A stretch of 33,923 bases of DNA from a virus: the IMG/VR virus record IMGVR_UViG_3300047550_000707, positions 1 through 33,923 of that record; one strand, written 5' to 3'. Below are positions 2,160 to 24,897 of the stretch, one piece after another; position 1 is the first letter of the stretch, and the number at the start of each line of letters is the position of its first letter. Below the pieces are notes generated by a model. That model saw only the letters and a program-made list of their open reading frames with translations. It searched no databases and was not told where the DNA came from. A program made the translations under genes and the position numbers.

Positions 2160-5100
2160 TTACTTGCCAAAAACTCTGGTAGTTTCTTGCTTCTTTTTGA
2201 TAGCTGTCGCAAGGTCTTCAAACTCAAGGCGAATATCAGGCATGCCGACATCTACAGGAAGACCTTCTTTGTCACCGATCATCCTGGCCTTGGCAAGGCT
2301 TCGATACCGCTCAACAACTTGAGAAATTATTTTTTGCTTGTCTCCAATGAGCAAAGGCTCTCCAGCGGCATCAGAGTCTGCTTCTGCTCGACGGACCTCG
2401 ATGGGAATCCTTTGCTCAAGGTTCATGCCGTCATCAAGGATTTCCTGGCCGTACAGTTTCTTGAATCGGTTGTACTGGTCAGCAGAAAGCCGAACTCCAT
2501 CCCAGACCTTGCTCGGTTCCGCTATGCCAAAGTTCAACTCGGCTAGCAGCGCGTCAGTCTCTGAGAACTTGCCCTCTGTCGCTTGAATGATTGGAGCCCA
2601 GTTGACCCAATAATCAAGTCCACGATTCTTGACCTTCACCTCGCGGCCAAGGCTATCCAGCAGCGGAGGCACATCCTTGGACAAGCCAGGGATGCGAGAC
2701 ATCACCTTCTGCCGCGCCTCGTAGAACGCACGGATGAATGGCGGCTGATCCATCACCGGAGACATGATGTTTGATTTCGTCGGATCGGTCATGCGCTCAA
2801 TGTGGCCCATCAAAGTGCTGTTTGACAGGCCAGCACCAGGTGTGCCGGTGTAGACGAAGTTGGCGAACTGGCGCGATATGCCGCCCATGATCTCCACCAT
2901 CTTGTCACCAGTGTCAGTGCTGCGTGACCGAGCGATCGCCAGCAACTCGCCAACGCCCTGCATGAATGGCAGATTGCCAATGTACTCGCCAACGCCAACC
3001 ATGCCAGCCATCGCCATGTTGGTGAACTCGTCGCGCTCTGGGTGGCGGTCAAACTTGGCCGCATCAGCCATGTCAGCGCCCATTGCAAGGACCATCGATA
3101 CAGGGTCAAACCTTGCAAATGACACATAGACCTTGTCCGGTCCAACGCCAACCTTGGTGATGTTCTGAAGTGCGGCGATGTTTTTCTCGGAGATTTCCCC
3201 GCGGTCAAAGACCAGCGAATACGGTTGCCAGCCCATCTCTTCAAGCGCCTTCCTGTCCTCTGTCTGTGACGGCCCTGACCCTGTGAGTCTGTTGTCCAGG
3301 GAAAGCCACGCTGCTCCTGTGACGGCGCTGCCGCCCATAGCCAAGCGCGCAATGGCCGCATCGCGCTGTTTGCCGCCCTGCTCCCACATGTTATAAAAGC
3401 GTGGACTCAGCATGTTCAAAACAGGGATGTAGCTTGAACCTTCAATGAACAGGTTGGTCACCGTCTTTGAGAATGGCACGAACACCTTGGCCGGGGCCAG
3501 GTTCAGAATCTGATTTGACCACCAGTATGTCTCGCCAAGCGCGCCATGTTTGTCAATCTTTTCTTGCAGCGTAACCATGTTCCGCATGCCTTCGATTGAT
3601 TCTTGAATCTGCGCTGGACGCTCGGTCAGGAACTGAGCAAGCTTTGCATCGATCTCTGTTCTTGCTGCGTCAGGTGTCAAGCCAGCTTTGACAAGCCTAT
3701 CGTACTCAGTGTTTGCAAAGCGCCATGCCTCTTGATGCAGTTGATACCTTGCGACGATTGCACCAACCAGTTCATCGCCAGCCTTCAGCCCACGGAATGA
3801 GATGTCATGCACAAGCCCGAGGCCGTCAATCACCTTGCCAATGAATGAGTCGGTCAGATCAGGGGTGCGCCACACTTCCTTGCCAAACAACCGCAAAGGC
3901 GTATCTGACAGGTTTTCTGCTGACAGTGGATTGGCAACGGCCTTGCCTGAGTCTGTGAACTTAGAATCACCGCCGCGCCGCATGGCATCGACAGCAAGTT
4001 CCCAGCCGTCAAGGAATCCGTTCTTGACCCCGGTCAATCCAGCCAAGACATCAGACAGGTGATAGCGCTCTGCTTCCGCGCCAGGCACAAGCTGCCTTGC
4101 AAGGCCGAGGCCAGACGCAAGCGTCCTCTCTATCGGAGCCATCGCGCCAAACACCGCAGTGCCAACAATGTTGTAGGCATGCGTCACAGGATCATTGAGC
4201 AAATTGCTCTGGTAAACATGAAACCAGACATCGCGCATTTTTGCGCCAAGGCCAGCCTCAAGCAGCCTGTTTTTGCCAGCGCGTGTCGGAGACTCAAGGT
4301 AGTCAACGGCCAACTGGTACAGAACGGCATCGGATTGCTGCGCGCCAAGTTCATCAAGCGCTTTCCTGGTAGCAGTTGCATCAAGCCCAGGTCCAGCGTC
4401 TTGAACGCGCTTGAACACATTCAGTGACCGAGCGACATCTGTCTGCATGCCTTTCAACTGCTTGACCAAGATGTCATGCTGGGCAAGGCGCATCCGCAAG
4501 TCCAACTTTCCTACATCGCTCAGAGTGCCAGTTGCCATCTTCTCCATCAGATCATCAAGCACCTTCGCGCTTTCATCATGCGCGAATACGGCTCCAGCAA
4601 TCTGCTTTGCAAGCTGGCTGCTGCCAACGGTGACATCCATGCTTTCACCGGCCAGCGTCCTCTTGAGGAATGACTCAGGTACGCCAGCGTTGATCGCCTG
4701 CATGTAGATGCTACGCAGTGACATTGTCGGCTCTTGCTGCGCGGCCCTGGTTCCGGCTGCGTTGATGGTCGCAGCGAGTCCGTCATTGTCAGTCCACATG
4801 CTGGAGATCGGAACCTCCGGCGGTCTTGCCTGCGGCTCTCCTTCAGCGATCCTGGTGTCAATGTCCAGCATCCGCTCACGCTCTTTCACAACCGCGTTGA
4901 CATCGGTGATGTCTACAGGCCGGGTCGGCTGAACAGTCACAGTCTTGGCCTGTGTGGCCGTAGGAGCAGCTGCTGCGGCTGGCGCTGCCGCAGGCGGGGC
5001 AATCGGATCAGGGCGGGTAATGACAGGTTCTTTCGCAGCCCGAGCGCCCTTTTTCGTCAGCGGGGCAAGAACTTTACCGATAGAGCCAACACCAGCAACC

Positions 5101-11274: not shown

Positions 11275-11555
11275 TAGTCCGTATCCGTTGCAGTCACAGT
11301 CACGCCGTCAGTGATGTCCACCACCGAGCCGGTGTTGGAGTTCACATAGGCGGTAGACATCACCGGAGTGCCACCCGTTGCCGAGTAGCAGAAGATCAGA
11401 TCGCCAACCTTGAGGATGGAAGCAATGCTATTGAAATACCCCGAAGCGCGGATGACCGATTGGGCATCAGTGCTGCTGTAGGTATAGATAGCCGGTGCAT
11501 TGCCAGCCTTCGATTGACCACCAATGGCATTGAAGCCAGCTGCGGAAAAAGCCAT
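11274..11555 (-). CDS. Small head decoration-like protein
   Basis: This 93-residue protein starts MAFSAAGFNAIGGQSKAGNA and continues YSSTDAQSVIRASGYFN, then VGDLIFCY and a threonine-rich C-terminus. I recognise this pattern from short beta-rich proteins encoded directly downstream of many podo- and siphoviral capsid genes and usually labelled capsid decoration or spike proteins. AAGGAGCAATAATC before the ATG is a strong ribosome site, as expected for a high-copy head protein. It probably coats the capsid surface. The evidence is order, size and motif; no enzymatic features are seen. Confidence 0.65.
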   Translation of the reverse strand: MAFSAAGFNAIGGQSKAGNAPAIYTYSSTDAQSVIRASGYFNSIASILKVGDLIFCYSATGGTPVMSTAYVNSNTGSVVDITDGVTVTATDTD

Positions 11556-20514: not shown

Positions 20515-21111
20515 CTACCTGTTACCCTGTACCTCGGCCAGCAGGCGCTCGGCGCTCGGCACTGGCAGGCCTTCCGCCCGGTACTGCGCGGCCAGCGCGT
20601 CGATCGCAGACTGTTGATTGATTGTCGAATCAACAAGTTCAATCCCGGATTGTGAAACAGCAGTTTGCATTACGGAATGGCTGTTATCGGCCTTGCGCTT
20701 GCGCTTGCTCATGCTTTCCCCTTTGTTCTGTAGGTGAATCGGTGTTTCCCCTGCGATCGCGGTCGCATCTTCGGCCTGTAATTCCGGCGCATACAGAATG
20801 CGGATTGTCTCGGCCTTGACCCCCTTTTTGCTGTGGCTGATTCGCTCAAGATATCCCCAAGCTTTCAGCCTGGCAATCTGCCGATGCACTGCTGGCTGCG
20901 ATATCCCGATGTCTTGGCCGATGCGCTTTTGCGACACCCAGACAATGCCGCCTTTGCTGGAATAAGCGCAAAGCGCCAGCAGGGTGCGCCATGTCCCGGC
21001 CGTCAGCCTGCGGTCGTTTGCCGCGCGGATCGGCACAATCGAAAACCTGCGCCGATCTTGGAATTCATGCTCTGCCAGCGCTTGCTGTTCGGGTATTTGA
21101 AAGGCCGTCAT
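20515..21111 (-). CDS. Winged-helix DNA-binding protein (regulator or replication initiator)
   Basis: This 198-residue protein has RFSIVPIRAANDRRLTAGTW (22-41) leading a clear winged helix: WRTLLALCAYSSKGGIVWVS, QKRIGQDIGISQPAVHRQIA as helix-turn-helix (61-80), and RLKAWGYLERI as wing. The C-terminal half is less ordered, with a KRKRK basic patch near 135. Similar proteins in Burkholderiales-type phages are called helix-turn-helix or replication proteins. It stands alone, divergent from the plus-strand early genes and next to the gene-free control region. It could bind the TTGATCCAGATCAA element upstream of its own start, or initiate replication. It has no CI-type peptidase or dimerisation domain. 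Confidence 0.75.
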   Translation of the reverse strand: MTAFQIPEQQALAEHEFQDRRRFSIVPIRAANDRRLTAGTWRTLLALCAYSSKGGIVWVSQKRIGQDIGISQPAVHRQIARLKAWGYLERISHSKKGVKAETIRILYAPELQAEDATAIAGETPIHLQNKGESMSKRKRKADNSHSVMQTAVSQSGIELVDSTINQQSAIDALAAQYRAEGLPVPSAERLLAEVQGNR

Positions 21112-21122
21112 TTCAGGATTCT

Positions 21123-21152
21123 ATGTTAGTGGCCACTCTTGATCCAGATCAA
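21123..21152 (-). promoter_or_regulatory. Putative promoter of the winged-helix gene overlapping the palindrome
   Basis: On the minus strand TTGATC (21152-21147), 18 bases, and TAACAT (21128-21123). The -35 element is half of the TTGATCCAGATCAA palindrome, so a protein bound there would block it. The predicted transcript start leaves a leader of only about five bases, and there is no ribosome site before the ATG. Leaderless translation or another promoter further upstream are both possible. Confidence 0.35.
21139..21152. promoter_or_regulatory. FNR-box-like palindrome, site 1
   Basis: TTGATCCAGATCAA fits the consensus TTGATnnnnATCAA of the anaerobic regulator FNR/Anr exactly and is a perfect inverted repeat around CA. 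It lies between the divergent winged-helix gene and the first plus-strand early gene. A closely related copy lies at 24123-24136 in the other divergent control region. It may be read by host FNR or by a phage-coded repressor. Confidence 0.6.
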
Positions 21153-21170
21153 TGTTCCAGTAAATATCTT

Positions 21171-21198
21171 TTGCACAGGGAACAAAGTCTGCTATTGT
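21171..21198 (+). promoter_or_regulatory. Putative early promoter
   Basis: TTGCAC (21171-21176), 16 bases, and TATTGT (21193-21198) point to the first plus-strand early gene at 21251. A second -10-like sequence with an extended TG (TGCTATCC, 21198-21205) follows. The leader then carries a small hairpin, GCACT (21208-21212) with AGTGC (21222-21226). This is sequence inference only. Confidence 0.4.
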
Positions 21199-21250
21199 GC
21201 TATCCATGCACTGCACCCTGTAGTGCGCTAACCCATGAAGAGGATAGACC

Positions 21251-21445
21251 ATGCAGATCACAATCACCATGCGGAACCAATACGGCGCGACTGTTTACCA
21301 CCCGGCCTGCGCCGATTCTCTGCTGTTCGCGCGTATCGCAGGCACGAAGACTCTTACGCCAGCAGCACTGTCAGCGATTAAATGCCTCGGTTATTTGATC
21401 GTGCTACAGCAGGAAAACCCGGCCATTATCGACACTGTGATTTAA
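21251..21445 (+). CDS. Small early protein, ITITMRNQYG family
   Basis: This 64-residue protein starts MQITITMRNQYGATVYHPAC and continues FARIAGTKTLTPAALSAIKC. I recognise this from small genes of proteobacterial phages and plasmids; the function is not known. GAAGAGGATAGACC before the ATG is the ribosome site. It opens the plus-strand early operon behind the FNR-like site. Its leader motif CACCCTGTAGTGC recurs in altered form before the third gene of the operon. Confidence 0.7.
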   Translation: MQITITMRNQYGATVYHPACADSLLFARIAGTKTLTPAALSAIKCLGYLIVLQQENPAIIDTVI

Positions 21446-21468
21446 TTCTCCCATATAAAGGAAACGAC

Positions 21469-21621
21469 ATGTCCTATATTCTCAAAAAAAGCTTGTCCGG
21501 TCTTACCTTTGAAGATATCAAGCGCATTTTCGACAACAATCCGAACATGACATTGCGTGAATTGTCGAATCTCACCGGATATGCTATCCCCTTCCTGAAA
21601 AAGATACTGCTAGAAAAATAG
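21469..21621 (+). CDS. 50-residue HTH-like early protein
   Basis: The start is ATG 21469, with AAAGGAAACGAC before it; the open frame extends upstream but no ribosome site is seen there. After MSYILKKSLSGLTFEDIKRI comes NMTLRELSNLTGYAIPFLKK, which looks like a helix-turn-helix (TLRELSNLTG then recognition helix AIPFLKKIL). It may be a tiny DNA-binding regulator of the early operon. There is no family name that I know. Confidence 0.6.
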   Translation: MSYILKKSLSGLTFEDIKRIFDNNPNMTLRELSNLTGYAIPFLKKILLEK

Positions 21622-21710
21622 TGCCACCCAGTAGCGCATTCTCGCCAGTGCGCTGCTGGATTGTCATTATCGGCAATCATTCACCCATTCACCCATAAAG
21701 AGGGAATGTC

Positions 21711-22397
21711 ATGCAAGTACATCTCACACTGAAAAGCGCTAACGCGAAAACCGGCGCGATACCTGTCAGCACCAGCAGCAGAGAATCATGTCCGGACACT
21801 TGCCCATTACGAAAGGCCGGATGCTATGCCGATGCCGGGCCGCTGGCGCTGCACTGGAATGCCGTCACGGAACAGCAGCGCGGCACTGACTGGCAAAGTT
21901 TTTGCGACAGTATCGCAGCACTGCCGGAAGGTCAATTGTGGCGGCACAATCAGGCCGGTGATCTGCCGCATCGTGCTGGCCGCATTGATAGCGCAGCGCT
22001 CGATCTGTTGGTGGCCGCGAATCACGGGAAACGCGGATTCACCTACACGCACCACGATGCAAGCTTGAATGCCGATCTGCTGGCCGCTGCTAACATCGAC
22101 GGATTCACGGTCAATCTGTCAGCGAATGACCTGCACCACGCCGATCTGCTGGCCGATTCCGGCCTGCCAGTAGTGGCAGTGTTGCCGATTGAACAGACCA
22201 CGAACACAAAAACCCCAGCAGGGCGCGCCGTGGTCGTGTGCCCGGCCACTGTTCGCGACGATGTCTCATGCGCCACTTGCCAGCTATGCGCGCGCGCCGA
22301 TCGCGCCGTAATTATCGGATTTCCGGCGCATGGAACCAGCGCCAAAAAGGCCGATTCAGTAGCGCGCCGTGTGATCAATCTGAAGGTGGCCGCATGA
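21711..22397 (+). CDS. Cysteine-rich early protein, Gp88/DUF7227-like
   Basis: This 228-residue protein begins LTLKSANAKTGAIPVSTSSR followed by SCPDTCPLRKAGCYADAGPL with C27, C31 and C38. Later it has HNQAGDLPHRAG and GFTYTHHD, then C177 and the cluster C187xxC190xxC193, ending GFPAHG. NxKTGxIPVSTTSxxSCPxxCP...GCYA and GDLP blocks occur in a family of phage and plasmid proteins (DUF7227; similar in style to mycobacteriophage Gp88). The cysteine clusters plus an apparent barrel-type alternation suggest an Fe-S or zinc enzyme; a radical-SAM-like fold is only a suggestion. AGAGGGAATGTC is the ribosome site. An ATGA junction couples it to the next gene. Confidence 0.65.
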   Translation: MQVHLTLKSANAKTGAIPVSTSSRESCPDTCPLRKAGCYADAGPLALHWNAVTEQQRGTDWQSFCDSIAALPEGQLWRHNQAGDLPHRAGRIDSAALDLLVAANHGKRGFTYTHHDASLNADLLAAANIDGFTVNLSANDLHHADLLADSGLPVVAVLPIEQTTNTKTPAGRAVVVCPATVRDDVSCATCQLCARADRAVIIGFPAHGTSAKKADSVARRVINLKVAA

Positions 22398-22501
22398 ACA
22401 GCAACGGAGATCTTGCAGTGGCATTCTTTTGCGCGGCCGTGGCCGTGGTGGCCGTGCTGCTGGCCGTTTATGAGACATTCAACAGAATAGGTGCATTATG
22501 A
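22394..22501 (+). CDS. 35-residue membrane protein
   Basis: ATG at 22394 overlaps the TGA of the cysteine-rich gene (ATGA), and its own TGA overlaps the next ATG (ATGA). MNSNGDLAVAFFCAAVAVVA followed by VLLAVYETFNRIGAL gives one transmembrane helix (about residues 7-26). The double coupling supports translation. Function unknown; in such position it could be a regulator of a host membrane complex. Confidence 0.65.
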   Translation: MNSNGDLAVAFFCAAVAVVAVLLAVYETFNRIGAL

Positions 22502-22626
22502 CGAATTGGACACAATCACAATGGCATTGTTGGTGCGTGGTATGGAATTCAGCGCTGGCCGCTGGCCTGTCAGGGGCAGAAGCTGACAGAATCGCAATGA
22601 TGGCAGCAGAGAATTACAGACTGTAA
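22498..22626 (+). CDS. 42-residue Trp-rich small protein
   Basis: ATG at 22498 overlaps the preceding stop. The protein starts MTNWTQSQWHCWCVVWNSAL, with five tryptophans in the first 16 residues, and ends with a helix LSGAEADRIAMMAAENYRL. No family is known to me. It is the last gene before the strong terminator at 22642-22668, which fits the end of a four- or five-gene early operon. Confidence 0.6.
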   Translation: MTNWTQSQWHCWCVVWNSALAAGLSGAEADRIAMMAAENYRL

Positions 22627-22641
22627 AACCTAACAGAATCC

Positions 22642-22668
22642 GGCCAGCCAAGCGCTGGCCTTTTTTTT
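22642..22668 (+). terminator. Rho-independent terminator of the first early operon
   Basis: GGCCAGC (22642-22648), five-base loop, GCTGGCC (22654-22660), then eight T residues (22661-22668). It is a textbook terminator, 15 bases after the last stop codon. On the minus strand there is no T tract, so it works one way. Confidence 0.92.
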
Positions 22669-23133
22669 GGCCTGCTGCCGCACTGGTGGCCGGTCTGTTG
22701 CCGCTCGGCCTTTTCCGGCCGGTGGCCTGCTGCTGCGCGCCTGCTGAAAATCAGGCCGCTGGCGCTGTTCGTCCGTGCGCTGGTAGTGGTGTACCGGCGC
22801 GCTGCTGTTCGCGCCGTGGTGGCCGTATTTAAGGCCTTGCTGCTGGCCTGCTGATTCTGCTGGCCTGCGGCCTGCTGCTGGTGGCCGTGCGCTGGCGGTG
22901 CGCTGGTGGCCTGCTGGTGGCCTGCTGGCCGTGGTGGCGTGGCCGGTGGCGCTGGCCTGCTGCTGGCGCATGATGCCGGAGCGCTGGCCGGTGGCCGGTT
23001 TACGGCCGCGCAATTCAGCAAAGCGCTGCTGTTTATCGCGCTGCAACACGGGCGCGCTGCCAGGGATCACGCTGCCTGGGGCAACAGATGGGACGCGATC
23101 AATTTCATCCTGGCCTGGCTTTCAGTTTGGATT
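22669..23133. repeat. GC-rich low-complexity region with GGCCTGCTG-type repeats
   Basis: These 465 bases lie between the terminator of the plus operon and the end of the minus operon. They consist largely of degenerate GGCCTGCTG / CTGGTGGCC units, especially 22669-22985. Open frames exist on both strands: on plus, hydrophobic Leu/Val/Ala-rich frames that shift into each other around 22850; on minus, a Gln/Arg/Pro-rich frame from a GTG at 23070. None has a convincing start and composition, so I call no gene. From about 22985 to 23133 the DNA is less repetitive. Confidence 0.6.
22877..22920 (+). repeat. Three Chi-like octamers GCTGGTGG
   Basis: Exact copies of the E. coli Chi octamer are at 22877-22884, 22902-22909 and 22913-22920, all in the same orientation, inside the GC-rich repeat. 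Chi redirects RecBCD from degradation to recombination in enteric bacteria. Whether the host of this phage reads the same octamer is unknown. The low complexity of the region makes chance clustering likely. Confidence 0.5.
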
Positions 23134-23424
23134 TCAGCCAGCATCACCCTGCTGCTCTGCTTTCATCGCGCGATGCACCGCAACCATCGCCCCCCGCAGC
23201 GCGTTGTACCCGGACATGCCACGCGCAGCCTTGACCCCAGCGAGATAATCGGCCTTGCTGGGCTTGATCTTGGTCTTGCCCTTCCAGATCGGCTCGTCAG
23301 GATAGTCGCGCAGCACCCGGCGCGCCTCGCACTCGGTCATCCATTCGGGGCACTCGTTGCAGACCTGCTGGCCTGACACCAAGGTGACCGCGGTCTGTCT
23401 GAAACAGCGATTCGCGCAGGTCAT
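23134..23424 (-). CDS. Zinc-finger-like protein, DUF7696-type
   Basis: This 96-residue protein has cysteines at 3, 7, 22, 25 and 32 in MTCANRC...VCNECPEWMTECEARRVL, a pattern I know from phage and plasmid DUF7696-type proteins (CxxxC then CxEC...EC.AR.VL). The rest is basic and helical (KGKTKIKPSKADYLAGVKAA). Its ATG overlaps the TGA of the resolvase gene (ATGA). It is the last of a three-gene minus-strand unit and probably binds nucleic acid together with, or next to, the resolvase. Confidence 0.7.
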   Translation of the reverse strand: MTCANRCFRQTAVTLVSGQQVCNECPEWMTECEARRVLRDYPDEPIWKGKTKIKPSKADYLAGVKAARGMSGYNALRGAMVAVHRAMKAEQQGDAG

Positions 23425-23885
23425 GGTTGTAGCTGGGTGTCGAGCGCCCAGTGCAAGATGGCAATGGCATCGGCCTCGTTGTCGTTCTCCGCGGGATGGC
23501 CCTTGGCTTTAGCCGCGGCAATCATCTCATCCTTGCCAGCGTTTCCCTTGCCAGTTGCATGCTTCTTGATCGTGCCAACCGGAACGCCCTGATACGCGAT
23601 GCGATGATGTTCACACCACGCAGTCAGCACGGCCAGGAAGCCACCGTAGACATGAGCGGCATCCGTGCCAGCATGACGGCGCACCTCTTCAAAGTAGACG
23701 GCATCCACTTGGCCCAGCTGATTCTTGATCTCCGTCAGCCAGGTCTTGAAGCGTAGGTAGCGCATGCCGCCGCCTTCATAGCGCCCAGGCTTGAAAGTCA
23801 CCCAGCCGTGCGAGATCGACCCATCACTGGATGCTGCCCAGCCGCTGGTCGTGCCAAGGTCCAACGCCAGGATGACCTCTCTCAT
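23421..23885 (-). CDS. RuvC-like Holliday junction resolvase
   Basis: This 154-residue RNase H-fold protein has LALDLGTTSGWA with D9, VYFEEV with E66/E67, and NDNEADAIAI with D139 near the C-terminus. These are the positions of the acidic metal ligands in RuvC-type nucleases, and the length is normal. It should cut branched DNA before packaging or resolve recombination intermediates made by the exonuclease/RecT pair of the plus operon. ATGA junctions couple it on both sides, to the ribbon-helix-helix gene and to the zinc-finger gene. Confidence 0.85.
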   Translation of the reverse strand: MREVILALDLGTTSGWAASSDGSISHGWVTFKPGRYEGGGMRYLRFKTWLTEIKNQLGQVDAVYFEEVRRHAGTDAAHVYGGFLAVLTAWCEHHRIAYQGVPVGTIKKHATGKGNAGKDEMIAAAKAKGHPAENDNEADAIAILHWALDTQLQP

Positions 23886-24061
23886 TTCGGCCCCAGCAGT
23901 TGATTCAGCCGCGAGTGCATGTCACTGTAGCGTGGCGTGAGCGCCTGCCGGATGCACTCCTCGATGATGCTGGCGCGGGAGCGGCGTTGATCCTCGGCGG
24001 CTTTGTCCAGCAGAGCGCGACTCTCCGGCCGCAGCCGCAGGGTGAAGACTTTCTGTCGCAT
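23882..24061 (-). CDS. Ribbon-helix-helix DNA-binding protein
   Basis: This 59-residue protein starts at ATG 24061 (AAAGGCATGTT before it); an upstream in-frame start at 24136 would lie in the control region. VFTLRLRPESRALLDKAAED forms strand and helix 1, and RSRASIIEECIRQAL helix 2, the Arc/CopG/MetJ fold. It is the first gene of the resolvase unit and lies 102 bases from the FNR-like site 2 centre region shared with the recombinase. Autoregulation of the divergent promoters is likely but unproven. Confidence 0.8.
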   Translation of the reverse strand: MRQKVFTLRLRPESRALLDKAAEDQRRSRASIIEECIRQALTPRYSDMHSRLNQLLGPK

Positions 24062-24122
24062 AACATGCCTTTCTGTATAGCGGGAAGACAGACCAATCCT
24101 ACCCTCTGAGGCCACAAAAAAC

Positions 24123-24136
24123 TTGACCAAGATCAA
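24123..24136. promoter_or_regulatory. FNR-box-like palindrome, site 2
   Basis: TTGACCAAGATCAA differs from the FNR consensus TTGATnnnnATCAA by one base. With its flanks, CTTGACCAAGATCAAGATTC matches site 1 (CTTGATCCAGATCAATGTTC) at 16 of 20 positions. It lies 62 bases from the ribbon-helix-helix start and 102 bases from the recombinase start, about the same distance as site 1 from its plus-strand gene. Confidence 0.55.
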
Positions 24137-24182
24137 GATTCTGGAAGATTGCTGTTGCCAGCCTGCCGCCGATCGGTTACAG

Positions 24183-24212
24183 TTCGCTCATGGTGTAGCG
24201 CAATGCTATACC
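24183..24212 (+). promoter_or_regulatory. Putative promoter of the recombinase operon
   Basis: An extended -10 element TGCTATACC (24204-24212 including the TG) lies 25 bases before the recombinase start. A weak -35 (TTCGCT, 24183-24188) is 18 bases upstream of the hexamer. GAGGAGTTGAC before the ATG is a strong ribosome site. The weak -35 fits an activator-dependent promoter. Confidence 0.4.
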
Positions 24213-24237: not shown

Positions 24238-24897
24238 ATGGACTACATCGCATACTATCGAGTCAGCACGGATCGCCAAGGCAACAGCGGCCTTGGACTC
24301 GAGGCGCAGCAGGCCGCGGTCAAGCAGCACGGCGGCAACATCATTGCCGAGTTCACCGAGGTCGAGAGCGGTGGCAAGTCATGCCGCCCCCAGTTGCTGG
24401 CCGCACTGGCCGAGTGCAAGCGCACCGGCGCAACCCTGATCGTTGCCAAGCTGGACCGGCTTGCGCGTGATGCCAAGCTGATCCTGACCCTGGTCGATGA
24501 GGGCGCGAAGGTCAAGTTCCTGGACTTGCCGGAGATCGACACAGAAGGTCCGATCGGCAGGCTGATGCTGACCATCATCGCTGGCGTGGCCGAGTTCGAG
24601 CGCCGTATCATCTCCAAGCGTACCAAGGAAGCGCTGGCCGTCAAGAAGGCGCGCGGCGTGAAGCTTGGCTGTCCGTGCCCGGAGCGCGGTGGCGCAATCA
24701 CCGGCAGTCGGCGCGCCGCCAAGGCATTGGCCGCAGCCAGGCCGCTGGCCGGGGTGCTGGCCGACATCCGGCAATCCGGCTTCACCACCATCCGGGAAAT
24801 CCAGCAGGAACTCATGGCGCGTGGCATTGCCACGCCATCAGGCAGCAAGTCGTGGTCTACAAGCGCGGTTCAACGGTTGATAGGGAGGGTCGGGTGA
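24238..24897 (+). CDS. Small serine recombinase (resolvase/invertase family)
   Basis: This 219-residue protein has the catalytic motif YYRVSTDRQ with Ser10. The catalytic domain blocks AKLDRLARDAKLILTLVDEG and GPIGRLMLTIIAGVAEFERR then IISKRTKEAL are intact. The C-terminal DNA-binding part (TTIREIQQELMARGIATPSG, then WSTSAVQRLIGR) is a helix-turn-helix. It is a small resolvase/invertase, not a large serine integrase. It may resolve multimers, invert a segment, or integrate the phage. No inverted-repeat pair of crossover sites is visible to me. It heads the second plus-strand operon and overlaps the next microgene (GTGA). Confidence 0.88.
   Translation: MDYIAYYRVSTDRQGNSGLGLEAQQAAVKQHGGNIIAEFTEVESGGKSCRPQLLAALAECKRTGATLIVAKLDRLARDAKLILTLVDEGAKVKFLDLPEIDTEGPIGRLMLTIIAGVAEFERRIISKRTKEALAVKKARGVKLGCPCPERGGAITGSRRAAKALAAARPLAGVLADIRQSGFTTIREIQQELMARGIATPSGSKSWSTSAVQRLIGRVG

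Follow-up and report, generated by a model that had tools for sequence, protein, structure and literature searches.

Genes and features around the two boxes

The window analyzed here is the whole of an IMG/VR viral record, IMGVR_UViG_3300047550_000707, with a length of 33,923 bases and a G+C content of 54.9%. In the phage collection, its large terminase is closest to that of Methylophilales phage MEP301 (75% identical), while a megablast search of the same collection returned no close DNA relative of the region among phage records. Ten close relatives were obtained with the recombinase as query. Terminase matches in the genome collection came only from metagenome bins labelled Chloroflexi, Flavobacteriaceae, Hyphomicrobiales, and Clostridiales; as these phyla conflict, the bins cannot be trusted as hosts, and hence no host is claimed. 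MEP301, a related phage, has no RNA polymerase gene of its own and presumably relies on transcription by its host (PMC8024684). No integrase was seen among the phage proteins searched, and the recombinase, being small and of the resolvase type, is unlike a typical integrase; the lineage is therefore apparently virulent.

Two box-like elements were studied, each lying between a minus-strand gene and a plus-strand gene, as the initial annotation had described (Table 1). The minus-strand protein next to box 1 matches PHROG 391 (E 2e-11) and also the HTH_36 and MarR_2 profiles. The start of the minus-strand gene next to box 2 probably needs revision. Coordinate 24136, where the annotation of the region had ended, coincides with a TTG-started open frame that runs through box 2. 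The true start is more likely the ATG at 24061, which has AGAAAGG ahead of it, because relatives place this ATG 59, 60, or 61 bases from the box, so that the frame of the TTG-started version is not kept.

Table 1 Positions of the genes and predicted features at the two sites of the window.
Feature	Position	Strand	Remarks
Winged-helix protein, replication-initiation O-like	20515..21111	-	starts 27 bases left of box 1
Box 1, TTGATCCAGATCAA	21139..21152	no strand	13/14 columns invariant in 7 distinct sequences
Predicted promoter 1	21170..21198	+	TTTGCA (17 bp) or TTGCAC (16 bp), extended -10 TGCTATTGT; best-scoring sigma-70 site in 105 bp
Hairpin, predicted 5' end of transcript 1	21208..21226	+	GCACTGCA ccc TGTAGTGC; leader z -3.16
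Rightward cassette 1: orf64, small orfs, DUF7227 protein (21711-22397)	21251..22626	+	variable cargo in relatives
Terminator-like hairpin with T-run, after cassette 1	22642..22660	+	
Arc-like ribbon-helix-helix (RHH) protein	23882..24061	-	starts 61 bases left of box 2
Box 2, TTGACCAAGATCAA	24123..24136	no strand	exact in 7/8 distinct aligned sequences; L004 differs at one base, and the box is deleted in L001
Predicted promoter 2	24155..24183	+	TTGCCA, 17 bp, TACAGT
Hairpin, predicted 5' end of transcript 2	24192..24212	+	GGTGTAGC gcaat GCTATACC; leader z -3.04
Serine recombinase, resolvase/invertase type	24238..24897	+	first gene of operon 2

On the plus strand, the first genes of cassette 1 vary among relatives (orf64, a DUF7249 protein, or unassigned proteins), and further along lies either the DUF7227 protein or, in relative L001, a protein matching the beta clamp. 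In contig L093, orf96 (22-261) is followed directly by the winged-helix gene (270-935), whereas in the window cassette 1 sits between them. As extra DNA between genes that adjoin elsewhere, with its own predicted promoter, a terminator-like hairpin, and variable first genes, cassette 1 is moron-like, and operon 1 resembles an accessory unit more than it does a core early region. The clamp-like protein of L001 (2869-3555, 229 aa) matches the central domain of the DNA polymerase III beta clamp (PF02767, E 5e-10). Past the cassette terminator, the stretch at 22670-23000 is rich in repeated gcgctggtggcctgctg-like words, and the long open frames there look spurious.

The serine recombinase of operon 2 is followed by YqaJ-like and RecT-like genes. 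A search for a segment that it might invert gave no convincing inverted pair of at least 20 bases.

Two boxes resembling the FNR consensus

Both of the 20-mers reported by the initial annotation were found where it had placed them, at 21138-21157 and 24122-24141, and they agree at 16 of 20 bases. Box 1 contains the only exact fit (10/10) in the window to TTGATnnnnATCAA, and box 2 is one base off (9/10). This sequence is the consensus of E. coli FNR (PMC3688515). The plus-strand start codons (ATGs at 21251 and 24238) follow the cores after gaps of 98 and 101 bases, also as first described.

With at most one mismatch allowed, the consensus occurs at five sites in the window, against 1.14 expected from shuffles. 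The joint 20-base pattern, which was derived from the two sites themselves, is found twice with up to three mismatches, against an expectation of 0.04. The looser form TTGAYnnnnRTCAA also matches within genes, at 4024 and 15661, so the short core is by itself not strong evidence. These genic matches are what one would cite for a chance similarity without function; this explanation is nevertheless scarcely credible given the rarity of the joint match, and the conservation and constant geometry described below already contradict it.

Other short sequences were noted at promoter 1. GGAAC (21179-21183), between the -35 and -10 hexamers, is invariant in all seven sequences, and TGTTCC (21153-21158), right after box 1, is kept in six of the seven and reads TGTCCC in L002. 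Together they form a possible second inverted pair.

Predicted promoters downstream of the boxes

A sigma-70 weight matrix, its hexamer weights taken from general knowledge, was applied blindly to the 105 bp that follow each box. In each of the 15 distinct sequences, the top rightward promoter is placed so that the box center precedes its -35 by 24.5-25.5 bp and its -10 by 47.5-48.5 bp; these sequences are related, so they do not represent 15 independent events, and the two sites count as two. With the -10 taken to begin at position -12, the box centers lie at predicted -59.5 and -60.5, and transcription is predicted to start near 21205 and near 24190. The boxes would thus stand at about -60 of the predicted starts, the class I position of Crp/Fnr activators; FNR activates sigma-70 promoters from sites centered at -41.5 or near -61.5. 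In L005, the -10 hexamer is TAGAAT instead of TATTGT, at an unchanged position. Promoter 2 matches the consensus at 9 of 12 positions and may do without an activator; relatives retain its -35 and -10 but differ in the intervening spacer.

Both predicted RNAs carry a strong hairpin within a few bases of their start. Because their sequences differ, the two hairpins are not duplicates of a single operator; they may serve to stabilize the 5' ends.

On the minus strand, the winged-helix gene has a predicted -35 that overlaps box 1, so that an activator bound there might also restrain this gene. A class II use of box 2 by a leftward promoter of the RHH gene was considered and set aside, as such a promoter was not consistently predicted.

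Conservation of the boxes in relatives

Conservation of the element in related phages, which the initial annotation had proposed to look for, was found at both sites: the boxes are conserved where the surrounding sequence has changed. Box 1 is present in seven of seven distinct versions. In L001, L002, L003, L005, L008, and L010 its distance to the winged-helix gene is unchanged and it forms a perfect dyad, TTGATCTAGATCAA; one more contig, 3300008107_002124 (L083), also carries it. In the site 1 alignment, only 9 of 227 14-base windows vary as little as box 1, and all nine overlap it. The flanking bases are also well conserved, and the constraint at this site may be wider than the 14-mer.

In nine of the ten close relatives, box 2 keeps its distance to the recombinase ATG (exact in eight, with one change in L004). 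A single one of its 14 alignment columns varies, but the transcribed leader and the beginning of the gene are as well conserved as the box. From the box to the -10, a large part of the DNA has been altered, while the box, both hexamers, and their spacing were kept. In five longer relatives, the dyad TTGAYCnnGATCAA occurs only at sites of the box 1 and box 2 types.

The loss of a site beside retained flanking genes, named at the outset as the observation that would speak against regulation, occurred once among the close relatives. In L001, around 5070-5100, a deletion takes the region upstream of the RHH gene together with box 2 and spares the core of the recombinase promoter. This contig offers a natural test case for the need of box 2. 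Neither box was found in more distant relatives or in MEP301; hence, the boxes are not essential to this phage family.

The boxes could also have been kept for a reason other than a regulator: their GATC sites might act as a pair in methylation, they might form a hairpin in RNA, or they might hitchhike with a promoter that is itself conserved. Box 1 does hold two GATC sites and its flanks are conserved too, but box 2 has only one GATC, and the phage shows neither a deficit nor an excess of GATC (202 seen against 212.5 expected). The RNA of box 1 has a folding energy of only -0.7 kcal/mol, and the box lies ahead of the predicted start. The methylation and hairpin readings were rejected as weak on the GATC count and the folding energy, and the unchanged box 2 within altered DNA counts against this group of readings. 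Taken together, such explanations appear quite improbable.

Candidate readers of the boxes

The initial annotation had proposed that one regulator sets both operons and had offered host FNR or a phage DNA-binding protein as this regulator. The shared geometry and the common control were supported by the conservation and by the identical promoter spacing in the 15 sequences. As for the reader, motif and position fit host FNR or a Crp/Fnr relative, while the winged-helix protein is an unlikely candidate.

This protein is encoded beside box 1 and divergently from it, and its DNA-binding fold resembles, weakly and below threshold, a Crp-type helix-turn-helix, so that the boxes might be its operators. 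However, its recognition helix exists in three versions (SQPAVHRQ, SGVAVHYQ, and SAPAVNRQ), all beside an unchanged box 1. In addition, it resembles phage replication-initiation O proteins, and its distant homologs have no such box upstream. We therefore regard this assignment as highly unlikely.

The RHH protein is a more serious rival, the boxes being in that case operators through which it acts on its own gene at box 2 and on the cassette and replication-gene region at box 1. Autoregulation is common among RHH proteins, and the N-terminal strand is the DNA-contacting part of their fold. Here, this strand (MRQKVFTLRLRPE) does not vary within the box-bearing group and is different in box-less relatives (for example, NKPFMVRLRPS), which keeps the protein as a rival reader, and the 59-61 base spacing between gene start and box 2 holds in every box-bearing copy. 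On the other hand, the dyad fits the Crp/Fnr consensus rather than any RHH operator known to us, a position near -60 is poor for repressing the rightward promoters, and L001 retains the RHH gene and box 1, yet the box beside the RHH gene is gone. Control by the RHH protein thus seems rather unlikely.

No cNMP-binding domain and no Crp-type helix-turn-helix above the family cut-off was found among the phage proteins, giving no indication of a phage-encoded Crp/Fnr system. With no such gene detected, with box 1 unchanged beside a varying winged-helix protein, and with the motif and position described, a Crp/Fnr activator fits best. Probably, a host activator of this family, possibly FNR, drives both rightward operons through the boxes. 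FNR, a protein marked by four Fe-S cysteines and an ETxSR recognition helix, or a relative reading the same TTGAT half-site, would, if the host has it, bind both boxes at about -60 and, as a class I activator, contact the alpha subunit of the host RNA polymerase. This would raise rightward transcription from the two sigma-70 promoters, and thereby of the moron-like cassette and of the recombination operon (serine recombinase, YqaJ, and RecT). The phage would in this way tie both operons to the physiological state of its host, and to low oxygen if the reader is FNR itself. In this scheme we infer the start sites, binding, activation, identity of the regulator, and signal. Points against it are that L001 has lost box 2 while the recombinase promoter remains, and that E. 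coli FNR seldom acts from class I sites.

Boxes of this kind can also be read by Crp/Fnr relatives whose signal is nitric oxide or something else. As FNR is only one member of the family, low oxygen is a possibility, not a finding. We put forward only tentatively the more specific proposal that an apparently virulent lineage uses host FNR as an oxygen switch, with two class I promoters turned on at low oxygen, for the accessory cassette and the recombination operon, and possibly a restraint on the divergent replication gene.

Similar boxes in other viral contigs

Viral contigs were scanned widely for such boxes at class I spacing. Among the matches listed, those with the exact spacing were few, and the ones from one scan all lay inside open frames; an excess at a gap of 15, also among the matches listed, came mostly from one unrelated phage group. 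For these reasons, and because the matches listed are a part of the whole, no general claim about phages is made.

Three sets of contigs are recorded as separate observations. The unrelated group (L198, L210, L219, L245, L262, L273, L279, L283, and L299) carries TTGATCTAGATCAA and, 15 bp later, TTGACATTATAAATG or a near variant, mostly with the same gene start (MQKKVLTEQ...); the TATAAATG found there resembles a T4-type late promoter. In L259, a 41 kb viral contig, a sigma-70-like promoter has an FNR-like dyad on either side, TTGATCTAGATCAA and TTGATCTAGGTCAA (about 1411-1530). Another phage contig, L221, has TTGATCTAGATCAA exactly 18 bp before TTGCAG, a 17 bp spacer, and TATAAT (about 11417-11480). 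This promoter-like site precedes a small open frame (MRKIHKDQ) and has the same class I spacing as the phage boxes.

Comparison with known systems

NtcA, the nitrogen regulator of cyanobacterial hosts discussed below, belongs to the Crp/Fnr family. Class I activation by E. coli FNR is rare, with one of 23 activated promoters, at -60.5 (PMC3688515). Such promoters share with the present sites a TTGATnnnnATCAA-type dyad centered near -60 of a sigma-70 start, in our case a predicted one; they are bacterial, whereas here the promoters are those of a phage. At the cld promoter of Ideonella dechloratans, a functional FNR box, TTGACTTAAATCAA, lies upstream and has the same TTGAC half-site, with 9 of 10 bases (PMC7349173). 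That promoter is class II, unlike the predicted class I position of the phage boxes.

Host regulators acting on phage promoters are already known. PhoB binds promoters of Synechococcus cyanophage S-PM2d, genes of which are under the control of host PhoBR (PMC10976474). There, as is proposed here, sites for a host stress regulator lie on phage promoters, but in that case binding and induction were measured, the regulator responds to phosphate, and the hosts differ. Sites for NtcA were predicted in T4-like cyanophages (PMC3037559), likewise as host-regulator sites on phage promoters, with the difference that they have the half-site GTA-N8-TAC, are numerous in each genome, and respond to nitrogen. 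The gonococcal prophage NgoPhi1 is induced anaerobically, and its gene NGO0472 is listed in the FNR regulon (PMC3032703). Phage genes are linked to FNR in both cases, here through putative sites; NgoPhi1 is a prophage in a lysogen, whereas the present phage has no integrase among the proteins examined and carries two conserved paired sites. No report of FNR boxes on the promoters of virulent phages was found in the open-access literature.

If a host Crp/Fnr protein reads the boxes, a small phage without a Crp/Fnr sensor of its own would have its gene expression set by the respiratory state of its host. The strategy of relying on host regulators, known for phosphate through PhoB and proposed for nitrogen through NtcA in cyanophages, would then extend to redox state or oxygen, and the boxes would provide a testable handle on the responses of phages to oxygen gradients.
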